From the IMG/VR virus record IMGVR_UViG_3300007609_000943, positions 1 through 20,885 of that record: a stretch of 20,885 nt of DNA; one strand, 5' to 3'. Under the pieces are notes generated by a model, which searched no databases, was not told the origin of the DNA, and saw nothing but the letters and a program-made list of their open reading frames with translations. This document shows, one piece after another, positions 4,272 through 15,874 of this stretch (within the stretch, counting starts at the first letter, position 1; the number at the start of each line of letters is the position of its first letter). Both the position numbers and the translations under genes were made by a program. This DNA comes from a virus.

Positions 4272-5038
4272 AGATTTTACTAACAGGTCATCTAGGATTT
4301 ATCGGTACTGGATTATCCAAACGGTTAAAGAAAGCAGGACATACTGTATACGGTGTTGACATTAAACAAGGTCCGCAGTTTGATTTACTACACTACACAG
4401 ACTGGCCCGAAGTAGATCTTGTTGTACATTTAGCAGGCAAGAGCGGTGTACGTGAAAGTGCAGCCGATCCTGCCAGTTACTGGTTTAATAACGTAGAAGC
4501 AAGCCGTAGACTGTTTGAACGCTATTCCGATACACGCATACTGTATGCGAGCAGTTCGAGCGCTTACGAGCCCGATTTGAACCCTTATGCGGCGTCTAAG
4601 TTCCTTATGGAAGAACTAGCAGAACGCTACGGTACGGATCATGTGGGTATGCGTTTTCACACAGTGTACAGCGATAGTTGTCCTAGAGAAAATATGTTTT
4701 TTAACAAGCTACGCAACGGTACACTAGAATACACAACTAAACATCACAGAGATTTTATTCATCTAGAAGATGTACTGGATGCGATAGAAATATTAATTAA
4801 AGCCCCACATGTACAGGGCTATGTTGATATTGGGACAGGGAATCCTGTTAGGATCCAAGACTTGGCTCCGGATCTACCGGTTCGTCTAAATACCCTAGGA
4901 GAGCGGAACTGGACTTGTGCTAACATGGAAAAAATGCGAGCACTTGGCTTCGAACCTAAATACTCGGTAGAAAAGTTCTTGACAAACAACAACTTAGGCA
5001 ATATAATAAACTTATTCAATGGAGAAAAGGTAACATGA
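4268..5038 (+). CDS. NAD-dependent sugar epimerase/dehydratase (extended SDR)
   Basis: A 256-residue short-chain dehydrogenase of the GalE/RmlB superfamily, acting on a nucleotide sugar. The NAD-binding TGHLGFIG is at 6-13 with an acidic residue ending strand 2 (Asp31). HLAGKSGV at 54-61 follows, then the catalytic SSSS (95-98) and Y107-x3-K111 (PYAASK). The usual HxxD-type end motif appears as RDFIHLEDV (161-169). It is shorter than full epimerases (about 320-340), mainly in the substrate-binding lobe, so the substrate may be small or the specificity unusual. Both ends have ATGA overlaps. A perfect sigma70 promoter for the next gene is buried in its last 60 bases. Confidence 0.88.
   Translation: MKILLTGHLGFIGTGLSKRLKKAGHTVYGVDIKQGPQFDLLHYTDWPEVDLVVHLAGKSGVRESAADPASYWFNNVEASRRLFERYSDTRILYASSSSAYEPDLNPYAASKFLMEELAERYGTDHVGMRFHTVYSDSCPRENMFFNKLRNGTLEYTTKHHRDFIHLEDVLDAIEILIKAPHVQGYVDIGTGNPVRIQDLAPDLPVRLNTLGERNWTCANMEKMRALGFEPKYSVEKFLTNNNLGNIINLFNGEKVT
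4979..5007 (+). promoter_or_regulatory. consensus sigma70 promoter upstream of the sliding clamp
   Basis: TTGACA (4979-4984), 17 bases, TATAAT (5002-5007): both hexamers are perfect. Transcription would start near 5014, about 20 bases before the clamp ATG at 5035, with the ribosome site GGAGAAAAGG at 5021-5030. The promoter lies inside the epimerase coding sequence. A short inverted repeat AATAA-AC-TTATT (5005-5016) overlaps its start region. Confidence 0.85.
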
Positions 5039-5763
5039 AAGATATCTTACAAGACGTAGTAGCACATACTCACGCACTAGGCTTCCTGACATTAGTAAAG
5101 GTTACTAATGAAGATGGAACAGCAATTGACTCGATGGCGGAAGACCGTAGTGTTATTTTGTCGGCAGAGACACACAACCCTGTAAACGAGTTTGTAGGCA
5201 CATTTGGTATGCCTAACCTAGACAAACTTGCATTGCATTTAAAAAACCCAGAGTACAAAGACAGTGCAAAGATCGACGTAGTACAAGCAGAGCGTAACGG
5301 CGAAACTATTCCTACGCATATTCACTTTGAAAACGCAGCAGGTGACTTCCAAAACGATTATCGCTTTATGAATAAAGCAATTATTGAAGAGAAGTTGAAA
5401 ACTGTTAAGTTTAAAGGTGCTAGCTGGAACGTAGAGTTTACTCCGAGCATGGCAGCTATTGCACGTATGAAGTTGATGAGTGCAGCACATTCAGAAGAGC
5501 CTACATTCAATGTTAAAACTGTAGACGGCAACTTGGTGTTCTCGTTTGGTGATGCAAGCACACACGCAGGTGAGTTTGTATTTGAAGCAGGCGTTGAAGG
5601 TAAACTACAGCATACATGGAGTTGGCCCGTAGCACAAACACAAGCCATTCTAAACTTGGATGGCGACTTGACTATGAGCATTTCGGATCAAGGTGCTATG
5701 AAGATTAGTGTAGATTCAGGTATGGTAAAATACGATTACATTCTTCCAGCGCAGAGCAAATAA
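5035..5763 (+). CDS. 45: DNA polymerase sliding clamp (T4 gp45-like)
   Basis: Processivity factor expected to ring DNA and hold the polymerase. It is 242 residues, close to T4 gp45 (228). Sequence identity to T4 is low. What supports the call is the two-part beta-rich layout, the N-terminal segment ending in FGMPNLDKLALHLKNP (position 58 onward), which matches the clamp pattern of marine T4-like phages as I remember it, and the final hydrophobic strand MVKYDYILPAQ, similar to gp45 C-termini. The polymerase at the start of the window ends in a clamp-binding peptide, which fits. It has its own perfect promoter and a strong ribosome site, as expected for an abundantly needed protein. I see no clamp loader (gp44/62) in the window. 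Confidence 0.75.
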   Translation: MKDILQDVVAHTHALGFLTLVKVTNEDGTAIDSMAEDRSVILSAETHNPVNEFVGTFGMPNLDKLALHLKNPEYKDSAKIDVVQAERNGETIPTHIHFENAAGDFQNDYRFMNKAIIEEKLKTVKFKGASWNVEFTPSMAAIARMKLMSAAHSEEPTFNVKTVDGNLVFSFGDASTHAGEFVFEAGVEGKLQHTWSWPVAQTQAILNLDGDLTMSISDQGAMKISVDSGMVKYDYILPAQSK

Positions 5764-10523: not shown

Positions 10524-11597
10524 ATGACAATCTACATTGTAGATATTGAAGCAGTAGATACACGCTACACCAAGCAATGGAAGGACTATCTTCCATGGCA
10601 ACTTCAACGTGCTACAGATGTAGATGTTGTAGTTATTAGTGGTGGGGAAACGCCTCATGCAACTACGCCCGGGGCTTTCCTTAACTTCGGTGGTACTAAC
10701 GTTTATAAATCGAAACAGCTCGAGCAGATTGGCGAGATGTTTTGCAACGGAGAAATTAAAGATGGAGATTATTTCCTATATACAGATGCGTGGAACCCAA
10801 CTGTTATCCAGTTGCGCTACATGGCTGAACTCCTTGGGGTCGACATTGGAATCGGTGGTCTTTGGCATGCTGGTAGTTATGATCCTCATGATTTCCTTGG
10901 TAGGCTGATAGGAGATGCACCTTGGGTACGTAACGCAGAAGCAAGCATGTTTCATGTGTACGACGACAACTTTTTTGCTACAGACTTTCATATAGACTTG
11001 TTTGCACAAGGACTGTTTGATGAGGACGACTCAGACGAACTACGCGAATACTATCCTAGCATCAAACGTGTTGGATGGCCTATGGAATATTTGCGTGATA
11101 GCCTTGTATCCTACAGTGGCATGGACAAGCGTGATATTATTTTATTCCCACATCGTATTGCTCCTGAGAAACAAGTAGACATCTTCCGTGACCTATCAGA
11201 ACATCTACCCGAGTATGAGTTTGTAGTATGTCAAGAACGTGAGCTTACAAAGAATGAGTATCATAACTTGCTAGGTGAGGCTAAGATGGTGTTTTCAGCC
11301 AATCTGCAAGAAACGTTAGGCATTAGTTGGTACGAAGGCGCTATTACTAACGCAATTCCTATGGTTCCGGATAGACTGAGCTATAGCGAGATGGCACTGA
11401 GCGAGTTTAAGTATCCAAGCAAGTGGACAGAAGATTGGAGTAGTTATGTAAAGTATCGCGGAGAGCTTGTTGCTAAGATTCGAGACTATATGGAAAACTA
11501 CAACGACTATCTAGTAAGTTTAGACAAACAACGTACTAAACTAAACAAAGAATTTTTTAGCGGAGCAGCATTGTATGACGCAATCAAAGCAGACTGA
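10524..11597 (+). CDS. GT-B fold glycosyltransferase (GT4-like)
   Basis: A 357-residue glycosyltransferase of GT-B type, which moves a sugar from an activated donor. The C-terminal Rossmann half begins at IILFPHRIAPEKQ (205-217), the usual donor-domain strand with a basic residue after it. LTKNEYHNLLGEAKMVFSAN (241-260) and ETLGISWYEG (263-272) follow; the latter holds the EX7E signature of retaining GT4 enzymes (Glu263, Glu271). NAIPMVPDRLSYSEM closes the donor site. The N-terminal half is more divergent, as acceptor domains are. The acceptor could be host surface glycan, a phage protein or modified DNA; nothing in the sequence decides. The ribosome site AAGGA lies about 8 bases before the ATG. 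It overlaps the next gene by 23 bases. Confidence 0.85.
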   Translation: MTIYIVDIEAVDTRYTKQWKDYLPWQLQRATDVDVVVISGGETPHATTPGAFLNFGGTNVYKSKQLEQIGEMFCNGEIKDGDYFLYTDAWNPTVIQLRYMAELLGVDIGIGGLWHAGSYDPHDFLGRLIGDAPWVRNAEASMFHVYDDNFFATDFHIDLFAQGLFDEDDSDELREYYPSIKRVGWPMEYLRDSLVSYSGMDKRDIILFPHRIAPEKQVDIFRDLSEHLPEYEFVVCQERELTKNEYHNLLGEAKMVFSANLQETLGISWYEGAITNAIPMVPDRLSYSEMALSEFKYPSKWTEDWSSYVKYRGELVAKIRDYMENYNDYLVSLDKQRTKLNKEFFSGAALYDAIKAD

Positions 11598-11982
11598 TTT
11601 TGAGAGTACAATTAATATTGACGAATTAGATTTAAGTGATCTAGGGTTATCAAACGATGATACTATTACTCTTAACTTAGACGACACATATGGCGCAACT
11701 ACTACATACTGGACAGGCGATAGCGTTAGTGATATTACTGTAAGCGGTGTTAGTGACGGTACGTTTAGTATAGATTTAAACGATATTACAACCGATACTA
11801 TCGACATAGATTGGCTTACTGGTAAATTAAATATCAATCCAAGTGAAGTTGAACGTATGTGCCAAGAGTATCCTAGTTTAGAAAAAACATGGCGTAACTT
11901 TAAAAGTGTATACGACATGGTCAAACAAGACTGGGAAGGTAAAAAGAAAGCAGGTGAAGTAGATGATGACATTCCTTTCTAA
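11575..11982 (+). CDS. acidic hypothetical protein with SSB-like C-terminal tail (DDDIPF)
   Basis: A 135-residue acidic protein. Residues 1-80 are Asp-, Thr- and Ser-rich with repeated short beta-like units (TINIDEL, TITLNLDD, DITVSGVSDG, TIDIDW). Residues 83-125 look helical (NPSEVERMCQEYPSLEKTW and onward). The last residues, EVDDDIPF, are the same as the acidic tip of bacterial single-stranded DNA-binding proteins (E. coli SSB ends DDDIPF), which docks onto repair and replication partners. There is no OB-fold, so it is not an SSB. The tail codons also encode the start of the cupin gene (20-base overlap). The helical part resembles proteins I recall from marine T4-like phages. Function unknown. 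Confidence 0.78.
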   Translation: MTQSKQTDFESTINIDELDLSDLGLSNDDTITLNLDDTYGATTTYWTGDSVSDITVSGVSDGTFSIDLNDITTDTIDIDWLTGKLNINPSEVERMCQEYPSLEKTWRNFKSVYDMVKQDWEGKKKAGEVDDDIPF

Positions 11983-12412
11983 GATTATGGATAGACTTGG
12001 AAGACGGCGAGTTATTACAGAACGTGATAGCGATGTACCTTATCTCATTCGCTACTACGTATTCTTAAAAGACAGAAAGCGTTTTCCTTTTAACATCACA
12101 CTGCACAAAGTACTAGTAAGTGATGAACCTACACTACACGATCATCCTTGGAGTTATGCAACATTTATCATTGCAGGCGGCTATTGGGAGAACACTCCTC
12201 AAGGGCGATTCTGGAGAGGTCTAGGACATTTTCGTTATCGCAAAGCAAGTGACTTGCATTGGTTAGAGTTAGAAAGAGATACTGACGGCAACGAAATTCC
12301 TTGCTGGAGTCTTTTCTTCATGGGACAAAAAGCAGGACAATGGGGATTTATCAAAGACGGAGAATGGATACACAATGAACAATACCTTGCTAGGGGTGCC
12401 AAAGACGAGTAA
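11963..12412 (+). CDS. cupin-like phage protein with HDHPW motif
   Basis: A 149-residue cupin-type beta-barrel candidate. The segment LHKVLVSDEPTLHDHPWSYA, centred on HDHPW at 59-63, then GGYWENTP and RYRKASDLHWLEL, follows a pattern seen in a family of phage and prophage cupin-like proteins. The His residues (59, 61 and 99) are plausible metal ligands, as in dioxygenase or isomerase cupins, but the reaction is unknown. PCWSLFFMGQKAGQWGF continues the barrel. Two tandem ATGs at 11963 and 11966 lie inside the end of the previous ORF. Given nearby sugar enzymes, a nucleotide-sugar isomerase-like role is imaginable but not shown. Confidence 0.8.
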   Translation: MMTFLSKIMDRLGRRRVITERDSDVPYLIRYYVFLKDRKRFPFNITLHKVLVSDEPTLHDHPWSYATFIIAGGYWENTPQGRFWRGLGHFRYRKASDLHWLELERDTDGNEIPCWSLFFMGQKAGQWGFIKDGEWIHNEQYLARGAKDE

Positions 12413-12473: not shown

Positions 12474-12494
12474 TCAAAAGAATTGAAACAGAAA

Positions 12495-12818
12495 ATGAGC
12501 AATAATAACAACTATGCATATGGATCCGGTATCGGGAACTTATCTAGTGGCTATACTGGCGGCACTATTAGTACTACTACACGTATTGCAGACAGTGCTA
12601 TTACTATAGACGGTGGTGAGAATGGTAGTATGCGTGTTGACGTTCCGCTTTTAGTAGATGGCAGAGACGTTATGCGAGAACTTGACGAAATGCGTGATGC
12701 TCTGCTATTGTTAAAGCGTGACGTAGATATGGAAGCTAAGTATCCTAAACTGCGAGAACTAAAGGATGAGTACGAAGTACAACTTGAAAAATACAAAACT
12801 TGGGAAGCAATGAAATGA
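12495..12818 (+). CDS. conserved phage hypothetical protein (107 aa)
   Basis: A 107-residue protein with a Gly/Ser/Asn/Thr-rich N-terminal 40 residues, a beta-like middle (SAITIDGGENGSMRVDVPLLVDGRDV) and a helical, charged C-terminus (ELDEMRDALLLLKRDVDMEAKYPKLRELKDEY region) likely to form a coiled coil. This arrangement recalls small proteins common in marine T4-like phages, thought to be structural, but I cannot verify that. I chose ATG 12495 over an upstream TTG at 12483 because the flexible MSNNNN start is more natural. The ATGA junction to the phosphoribosyltransferase indicates coupling. Confidence 0.75.
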   Translation: MSNNNNYAYGSGIGNLSSGYTGGTISTTTRIADSAITIDGGENGSMRVDVPLLVDGRDVMRELDEMRDALLLLKRDVDMEAKYPKLRELKDEYEVQLEKYKTWEAMK

Positions 12819-13944: not shown

Positions 13945-14148
13945 ATGAGAGAACAACTATTAAAGGCATTTGTGTCTCACGCCAAAGGACACATTGATAA
14001 ACACGTAGCAAACGTGGAAGTATACTTGCATAATCCAGCAGGCATCGGCGAGCATTCAGACATTATCGAAGCAATCGAATGTGAAGTTAAGCAGATTGCA
14101 GAATATGATGACATGCTTGAAATGGCAAAAAAATACTTTAACGCTTGA
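13945..14148 (+). CDS. small conserved phage hypothetical protein (67 aa)
   Basis: A 67-residue helical, acidic protein. The central element HNPAGIGEHSDIIEAIECEV (positions 29-48) is very like short proteins I recall from cyanophages and other marine T4-like phages, so it is probably a conserved phage accessory protein of unknown role. A good ribosome site AAGGA lies about 9 bases before the ATG, one base after the HIT stop. Its TGA stop (14146-14148) is inside the -35 box of the folE promoter. Confidence 0.82.
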   Translation: MREQLLKAFVSHAKGHIDKHVANVEVYLHNPAGIGEHSDIIEAIECEVKQIAEYDDMLEMAKKYFNA

Positions 14149-14231: not shown

Positions 14232-14915
14232 ATGAAAAAATACGAAGAAATTATCGAACGCTGTAAAGCCGCAGACAAGCGTTACTGGGCTGGCGATAAC
14301 ATTGCTCGCTTGCTACAAGACGGCGATAAAGAAAAACTGATTGATGAAGCTACAGAGGCTTTTGAAACTGTACTAGACACACTGATTATTGATAGACATA
14401 CTGATCCTAACAGCAAGGGTACAGCAAGACGTCTTGCTAAAATGTACTTTAATGAGATTATGGCAGGACGTTATGACTATCGTCCAGATGCAACTGCATT
14501 TCCTAATGACAGCGAAGATCGCTATGAAGGTATGCTTGTTGTACGTTCAGAACTAAAGAGCATGTGTAGTCACCATCACCAGCCTGTAAGCGGTGTTGCA
14601 TACATTGGCATTATTGCCGCAGACAAACTTATCGGACTGAGCAAGTACACACGCATTGCACAGTGGTGCGCTCGACGTGGTACACTGCAAGAAGAACTTG
14701 CAAATGATATTGCACGTGAGATTGCTTATTCAACAGGTGCAGAACACTTGGGTGTGTACATTCAAGCAACACACGGATGCTGTGAAAATCGTGGTATTAT
14801 GGCACACAGCAGTCTCACACAAACAACTGTACTCAAAGGTGCATTTAAAGATGATGCAGGCACAAAGAAAGAGTTCTTTGACAATATCAAACTACAACAG
14901 GAATTTAGTTGCTAA
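14232..14915 (+). CDS. folE: GTP cyclohydrolase I (FolE)
   Basis: A 227-residue type I GTP cyclohydrolase (E. coli FolE 222 aa), which makes dihydroneopterin triphosphate from GTP; it is the first step to both folate and 7-deazaguanines. SMCSHHHQPVSG at 110-121 corresponds to the SLCEHHLLPF zinc and substrate motif (Cys112, His115). GLSKYTRIAQWCARRGTLQE (135-154) matches GLSKxxRxVxxxARRxQxQE, and HGCCENRGI (181-189) supplies the second zinc Cys (183) and the RG substrate contact. The first 90 residues are helical and more divergent. It has its own promoter at 14145 and ribosome site CGGAGA, and its stop overlaps the queE start (TAATG), so the pair is co-transcribed and coupled. Confidence 0.93.
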   Translation: MKKYEEIIERCKAADKRYWAGDNIARLLQDGDKEKLIDEATEAFETVLDTLIIDRHTDPNSKGTARRLAKMYFNEIMAGRYDYRPDATAFPNDSEDRYEGMLVVRSELKSMCSHHHQPVSGVAYIGIIAADKLIGLSKYTRIAQWCARRGTLQEELANDIAREIAYSTGAEHLGVYIQATHGCCENRGIMAHSSLTQTTVLKGAFKDDAGTKKEFFDNIKLQQEFSC

Positions 14916-15874
14916 TGGAAGCTCCAGTATTTGAAAAAGGATATCCGTCATATGAAGCAGTTAATAGGAAGCCAGCAATGAAACTACGATATAGTGAAGC
15001 GTTTTACAGTGTACAAGGCGAAGGCAAGTTTGTAGGAGTACCCAGTGTATTCCTACGCACATTTGGTTGTAACTTCCGCTGTATGAACTTTGGTGTTGAC
15101 AAAAGTGTTGGTAGTCGTTGGGAGCAACATGCTAAGGGTCAGCGCTACAATGCAGAAGTTAAAAACTTGATTGACATGAAAGTGCATGAAACAACTGAGA
15201 AGTTTGAAGACTTGCCTATTATTCACACAGGTTGCGATACATATGCAAGTATCTATCCTGAGTTTAAAGACTTTAACAAGTTGGCAGAAGTTGACGAAGT
15301 AGTGGATCACTTGCTTAGTTTGCTTCCAGAAGGCAAGTGGACTATGGATAATGGGCAAGATGTTCACCTTATCCTCACAGGCGGCGAGCCTTTGCTTGCA
15401 TGGCAACGACTGTATGTCGAACTATTCGAACATCCTAAGATGAAGGATTTAAAAAATGTCACTATTGAAACAAATACAACACAACCGCTACATAGCGATT
15501 TTGCAGAATACCTCAACACTCAAGAACGCTTCACAGTTACATTTTCATGCTCACCGAAGCTCTCCGTTAGCGGAGAATCTTGGGAAGATGCTATTAAGCC
15601 TCAAGTTGCTTGCCAATACGCTGGTGTACGTGGTAGTGACATTTACTTTAAGTTTGTGGTTGCCGATCAAGACGATGTTGACGAAGTTACTAGAGCTGTT
15701 CAGCTTTATAGAGATGCCGGAGTTGACTGTCCGGTCTACCTTATGCCGTTGGGCGGGCGCAGTGAAGAATATACCCTCAATGTTCAAGAAGTCGCGGAAC
15801 TCTGTATGCAACGAGGATGGCGATTCAGCCCCCGACTCCACATATCGCTATTCGGGAATGCCTGGGGGACTTAG
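14915..15874 (+). CDS. queE: 7-carboxy-7-deazaguanine synthase QueE (radical SAM), with insertion splitting the cysteine motif
   Basis: A 319-residue radical SAM enzyme converting 6-carboxytetrahydropterin to 7-carboxy-7-deazaguanine. YSEAFYSVQGEGKFVGVPS (26-44) is the QueE N-terminal signature. FGCNFRCMNFG at 50-60 gives Cys52 and Cys56. The third cluster cysteine is not at the usual place two residues later; TGCDTYAS (105-112, Cys107) matches the CDTxYA that normally follows it. The cluster motif is therefore CX3CX50C, with about 47 extra residues inserted. HLILTGGEPLLAWQ (151-164) holds the SAM-binding GGE. The protein is longer than compact QueE (about 210-240) because of this insertion and the C-terminal part ending FGNAWGT. 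Start at 14915, coupled to folE. Confidence 0.9.
   Translation: MEAPVFEKGYPSYEAVNRKPAMKLRYSEAFYSVQGEGKFVGVPSVFLRTFGCNFRCMNFGVDKSVGSRWEQHAKGQRYNAEVKNLIDMKVHETTEKFEDLPIIHTGCDTYASIYPEFKDFNKLAEVDEVVDHLLSLLPEGKWTMDNGQDVHLILTGGEPLLAWQRLYVELFEHPKMKDLKNVTIETNTTQPLHSDFAEYLNTQERFTVTFSCSPKLSVSGESWEDAIKPQVACQYAGVRGSDIYFKFVVADQDDVDEVTRAVQLYRDAGVDCPVYLMPLGGRSEEYTLNVQEVAELCMQRGWRFSPRLHISLFGNAWGT

Follow-up and report, generated by a model that had tools for sequence, protein, structure and literature searches.

Organization of the locus

The window analysed here, the whole 20,885-nucleotide stretch of IMG/VR virus record IMGVR_UViG_3300007609_000943 (positions 1 to 20,885), represents part of a large phage genome. 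The DNA polymerase it encodes has its nearest cultured-phage relatives among jumbo phages, for instance Sinorhizobium phage Phosso (50% identity) and Agrobacterium phage Atu_ph07 (45%), and for its MoxR-type ATPase the closest counterpart is found in PA5oct-like phages. The gene under study lies on the plus strand (Table 1) and terminates in KKKAGEVDDDIPF-TAA. As read in the original prediction, its product, hereafter the tip protein, ends in EVDDDIPF (GEVDDDIPF with one residue more), and a basic stretch, KGKKKAGE, comes just before the tip. The last six residues are identical to the C-terminal tip of bacterial SSB (SSB-Ct; DDDIPF in E. coli). The same DNA does encode the start of a cupin-like protein, as had been proposed, and the nucleotides shared by the two ORFs comprise the whole tip minus its first base: GATGATGACATTCCTTTCTAA reads D-D-D-I-P-F-stop in the frame of the tip and, from the second base, M-M-T-F-L-S-K.

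The upstream gene is predicted to be glycosyltransferase-like from its place and from its N-terminus relative to Phosso XYS97382; ORFs alone served to place the starts of the neighbouring genes. Farther upstream, positions 5035–5763 encode a phrog_12062 protein where Phosso has a protein of comparable length annotated as a DNA polymerase III beta sliding clamp, and the window protein is possibly a phage clamp. At 14232–15874 a FolE-like GTP cyclohydrolase adjoins a QueE-like protein, as in Phosso, and the pair suggests 7-deazaguanine DNA modification. A small neighbour protein, variable at its N-terminus but with a C-terminus that is constant and looks helical (DALLLLKRDVDMEAKYPKL...KYKTWEAMK), is encoded at 12489–12818 of the window, at 4681–5049 of contig L001 and in L264; it is tipless, and its layout resembles that of the tip protein.

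Table 1. Positions of the features described, in window coordinates unless a contig is named.
Feature	Location	Strand	Basis or remark
Gene upstream; the neighbour is conserved across homologous loci	10524..11597	+	ORF; 3′ end overlaps the start of the tip-protein gene
Gene of the tip protein, 135 aa	11575..11982	+	ORF, ATG start; 68 distinct homologues
Residues 1–85: acidic, T/S/D/I/N-rich, hypervariable, predicted disordered	11575..11829	+	Composition, alignment, pLDDT
Residues 89–126: conserved, predicted helical hairpin (MCxxYPxLxxxWxNFKxxYDxxxQD)	11839..11952	+	AlphaFold helices, invariant columns
SSB-Ct-like tip DDDIPF	11962..11979	+	Sequence; retained by homologues whether or not a gene overlaps
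Cupin-like gene (phrog_4786)	11963..12412	+	+1 frame; 20-nt overlap with the tip-protein gene; silent sites frozen there
phrog_1811 protein	13945–14148		Profile match; tipless
phrog_1811 protein	L284 1279–1497	-	
phrog_1811 protein, HTVC033P gp31	L393 6001–6222		
Tip DEDDIPF without overlap	L017		Next ATG gene 22 nt downstream
Tip DDDIPF without overlap	L025		Next gene 9 nt downstream
Tip DNDFPF without overlap	L045		Next gene 18 nt downstream
Tip DDDIPF without overlap	L062		Next gene 11 nt downstream
Tip DDDIPF without overlap	L158		Next gene 9 nt downstream

Architecture of the tip protein

A pI of 4.05 and a count of 18 D/E against 2 K/R are the basis on which residues 1–85 are described as acidic. 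In an AlphaFold model built with 67 sequences, the pLDDT of these residues is mostly 42–64, two helices (residues 89–98 and 100–126) follow with block-mean pLDDT of 81–89, and the tip sits on a flexible end, with no secondary structure past residue 126 and a block pLDDT of 63 for the last residues. The alignment of homologues is divided in the same manner. The N-terminal half, acidic and with much T/D/I/S, is hypervariable; the second half, MCxxYPxLxKVWRNFKSVYDMVxQDYxGK, hardly varies and leads into the tip.

The lack of OB-fold features claimed in the original prediction is borne out. The window protein matched no SSB or OB fold in Pfam or PHROG, neither of the gp32-type phage SSB profiles (PF08804 and phrog_1192) and not the phrog_1811 profile, and it was unmatched in PADLOC. 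None of the 67 members had an SSB match at an E value of 0.1, either in Pfam (PF00436) or among the 25 PHROGs listed, and no OB fold is present in the AlphaFold model, the N-terminal half of which is of low confidence. Pfam and PHROG matches of family members were scattered and compositional, and a xylose operon regulator found by sequence in the PDB (E 0.003) was judged a chance match, as were the Foldseek matches to the model (best E 8). The best reading of the predicted model is that the protein displays the SSB-Ct on a helical hairpin rather than on an SSB, and it is probably a small, non-structural, intracellular phage protein.

Conservation and loss of the tip

Close relatives of the tip protein are few; profiles of its C-terminal part found many more in IMG/VR, and the merged results gave at least 68 distinct sequences, all from IMG/VR contigs. 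A further relative ending in KKNV (L266) was left out of the 68. No relatives were found in the bacterial genomes searched, and tblastn against cultured phages gave chance matches only, with no carrier of the family in the collection searched. The positional neighbours in Phosso look unrelated to the tip protein.

Fifty-five of the 68 homologues end in PF, nearly all after an acidic run. These are acidic at positions −6, −5 and −4 and carry I or L at −3, which is the SSB-Ct pattern; the family and bacterial SSB share the same positional tolerance (an acidic run, a hydrophobic residue and an invariant Pro-Phe), and in both the C-terminus is flexible. Three long related contigs together encode 884 predicted proteins, and among these only members of the tip-protein family have an acidic-x-PF C-terminus.

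Variable C-termini among homologues had been named as evidence against a role for the tail, and such variation exists in part, since PF is missing in 13 of the 68, where the tip is lost or degraded. The endings are DDDFSF (L005, the nearest long contig), KDELF (L142), DDLLI (L197), NDTSI (L248), DAENS (L259), DDTQF (L061), NAKW (L109), GEIYE (L063, L064), GALI and GVLI (L066, L071), EKNN (L070) and DLND (L178). Because of these losses, the tip is, as far as the alignment tells, an advantage that certain phages or hosts allow to be dispensed with.

The tip and the overlapping reading frame

A cupin start of MTFLSK dictates D-x-x-x-stop in the other frame, where the three variable residues can be I/L/V/F, then P/S (or L/F), then F/I/L/V. 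In the window the overlap therefore fixes the second and third Asp and leaves few choices for the last three residues, and the original prediction had suggested that the tail may be constrained by it. The homologues do not assign the main cause to this constraint. Five lineages keep the tip where no gene overlaps it (Table 1), and a tree built from the upstream protein puts them at separate positions; in six others (L006, L008, L012, L042, L056 and L264) PF is present with a non-cupin gene in the overlap. The synonymous codons of the tip often differ in lineages without overlap or with other overlapping genes.

The silent sites of the cupin start point in the same direction. In cupin-overlapped loci the codon of Phe4 is TTC in 29/31 cases versus 23% elsewhere, and that of Leu5 is CTT in 25/26 versus 22% elsewhere, counted on representatives with a median third-position difference of 51% and with only partial correction for shared ancestry. 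The silent bases frozen in the cupin are those that spell the P and F of the tail. In loci with Arg in place of Leu at cupin residue 5, the codon used is CGT, by which the Pro (as CCG) and Phe of the tail are preserved. Conversely, L005 has an intact cupin start and a decayed tip.

From amino-acid frequencies, the chance per protein of [DE][DE]xPF at the C-terminus is ~3e-5 and that of DDDIPF is ~4e-8. The tip thus exceeds what chance would give, and the codon and tree evidence shows that the overlap does not account for it either. With PF at the end of 55 of 68 homologues, some of them from lineages without overlap or with another gene at that place, the comparisons show, at the level of alignments and codons, that selection on the protein, and not the gene overlap, maintains the tip. 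That the tail merely follows from the cupin start, its likeness to the SSB-Ct being a coincidence, is very improbable: the restriction seen in the window is real, but it accounts neither for tips retained without it or under other genes, nor for silent sites frozen to spell PF, nor for the decay in L005, and overlap as the main cause is ruled out by the no-overlap lineages, their tree positions and the frozen sites.

The gene after the tip gene is often exchanged while the flanks stay constant; it may be the cupin, a TSYAN-type protein, MQHTI or MNHDA, or a phosphoribosyltransferase may follow directly (exchanges are seen, e.g., in L006, L025, L042, L045, L062 and L158). Judging from these loci, the position downstream of the tip gene is a small hot spot of gene replacement.

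Other proteins ending in DDDIPF

A DNA-pattern scan for DDDIPF-stop gave at least 80 viral loci, and 77 proteins from the matches listed were then profile-scanned. Among these listed matches the proteins are mostly DNA-metabolism-like and chiefly SSBs: 22 of the 77 match the Pfam SSB and others match divergent-SSB PHROGs, alongside two DEAD/ResIII helicases, one DnaB and five phrog_1811 proteins. The two DEAD/ResIII-type helicases (L292 4839–6524, minus strand; L312 942–2771, plus strand) are further non-SSB carriers of the ending.

The phrog_1811 proteins form a small family that is common in marine phages and is predicted to fold as a helical hairpin. One clade, which includes gp31 of Pelagibacter phage HTVC033P, ends in [DE]DDIPF without gene overlap. 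Like the tip protein, it is a small non-SSB phage protein with the tip at the flexible end of a predicted helical hairpin; unlike the tip protein, to which it is unrelated in sequence, it has no disordered acidic N-terminus and no overlap, and within phrog_1811 the tip is confined to this clade. Compensation, in which phrog_1811 would gain a tip where the tip-protein family has lost it, was considered and rejected, as phrog_1811 is tipless at every family locus with its C-terminus read; the lone tip match at these loci, in L219, is spurious.

Proposed function of the tip protein

At least 17 genome-maintenance proteins of E. coli use the SSB-Ct as their docking hub, and peptides of the SSB tip suffice to bind RecO, PriA, chi and PriC (PMC7145534). 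The SSB of phage HK620 requires a similar tail, NDYPPF, to recruit its partner Sak4 (PMC5928155). Since the SSB tip alone suffices and the HK620 tail recruits Sak4, the tip on another scaffold should also be able to dock on SSB-interacting proteins (SIPs). We put at about even the probability that the tip protein is a mimic of the SSB-Ct which docks on host SIPs as a decoy or an adaptor. The tip would enter the SSB-Ct pocket of at least one host SIP, for instance RecO, PriA, RecQ, exonuclease I or the polymerase III chi subunit. As a decoy, the protein would pull SIPs off host SSB; as an adaptor, it would carry them to replicating phage DNA coated by a tipless phage SSB. The hairpin and acidic N-terminus could provide a second contact or serve in oligomerisation. 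Judged from the conservation of the tail, the phage probably uses it to engage these host enzymes or to block them.

The related contigs do encode a separate SSB of the gp32 type, which PF08804 missed and phrog_1192 detected in two of the eight contigs (G002 and G003). It ends in DILAMIRSRQG(Q), so that the phages' own SSB is ruled out as the source of the motif. A broader proposition, plausible if somewhat short of even, is that in aquatic phages the SSB tip serves as a portable module, borne by small helical-hairpin proteins that are not related to SSB (the tip-protein family and the phrog_1811 clade), which would seize or block host SIPs in trans while the phages' own gp32-type SSB is tipless.

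A partner encoded by the phage itself, such as a helicase, nuclease, recombinase or other replication protein, is a rather unlikely alternative. Its precedent is the HK620 tail, which recruits a phage protein (PMC5928155), and much of the replication machinery of these phages is their own (DNA polymerase, exonuclease, SSB). Against it, the exact SSB-Ct pattern is what would be expected from a pocket shaped by bacterial SSB, and a phage pocket would serve the tip protein alone, the phage SSB being tipless. Moreover, host partners are favoured because RNase HI, the exonuclease I C-terminal domain and the RecQ zinc-binding domain, the canonical SIP families tested, were not found in the eight contigs, which are possibly incomplete.

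The tails of SSB and of gp2.5-type proteins shield a basic surface when ssDNA is absent. A similar use of the acidic PF tail, within the protein or its oligomer, is improbable here; the basic KGKKKAGE would offer a surface and the E. coli SSB tip can bind the DNA-binding domain (PMC7145534), but the tip protein has no recognised DNA-binding domain, is mostly acidic (pI 4.05), and would not need an exact terminal PF for such a purpose. More doubtful still is a virion or assembly protein with the tail as a structural contact, because the T/D/I-rich N-terminal half matches a few structural PHROGs only weakly (best 8.8e-4; 3/67 members) and probably by composition, and the neighbours are DNA polymerase, FolE, QueE, exonuclease and ATPase genes, with no head or tail genes; this setting in DNA and nucleotide metabolism also speaks for the SSB-Ct mimic.

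The reading as an SSB-Ct mimic sets the tip protein apart from known carriers of such tails. In contrast to bacterial SSB, it has no recognised OB fold, its hairpin and disordered N-terminus are predicted, and its partners are putative. T7 gp2.5 is an OB-fold SSB whose acidic tail with a terminal Phe recruits replication partners; the tip protein shares the acidic, Phe-terminated tail, but gp2.5 does not carry DDDIPF. The HK620 protein is likewise phage-borne with an SSB-Ct-like tail, which recruits a DNA-metabolism partner, but it belongs to the SSBs, and the partner known for it is phage-encoded.

The open-access literature searched yielded no report of a natural SSB-Ct mimic on an unrelated phage scaffold. 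If the proposal is true, a phage protein presenting the SSB tip on such a scaffold would be one, and the SSB-Ct is an antibacterial target. How phages whose SSB is tipless handle the recombination and restart enzymes of the host would also become a more concrete question. A similar tip is available in a cultured phage as HTVC033P gp31.
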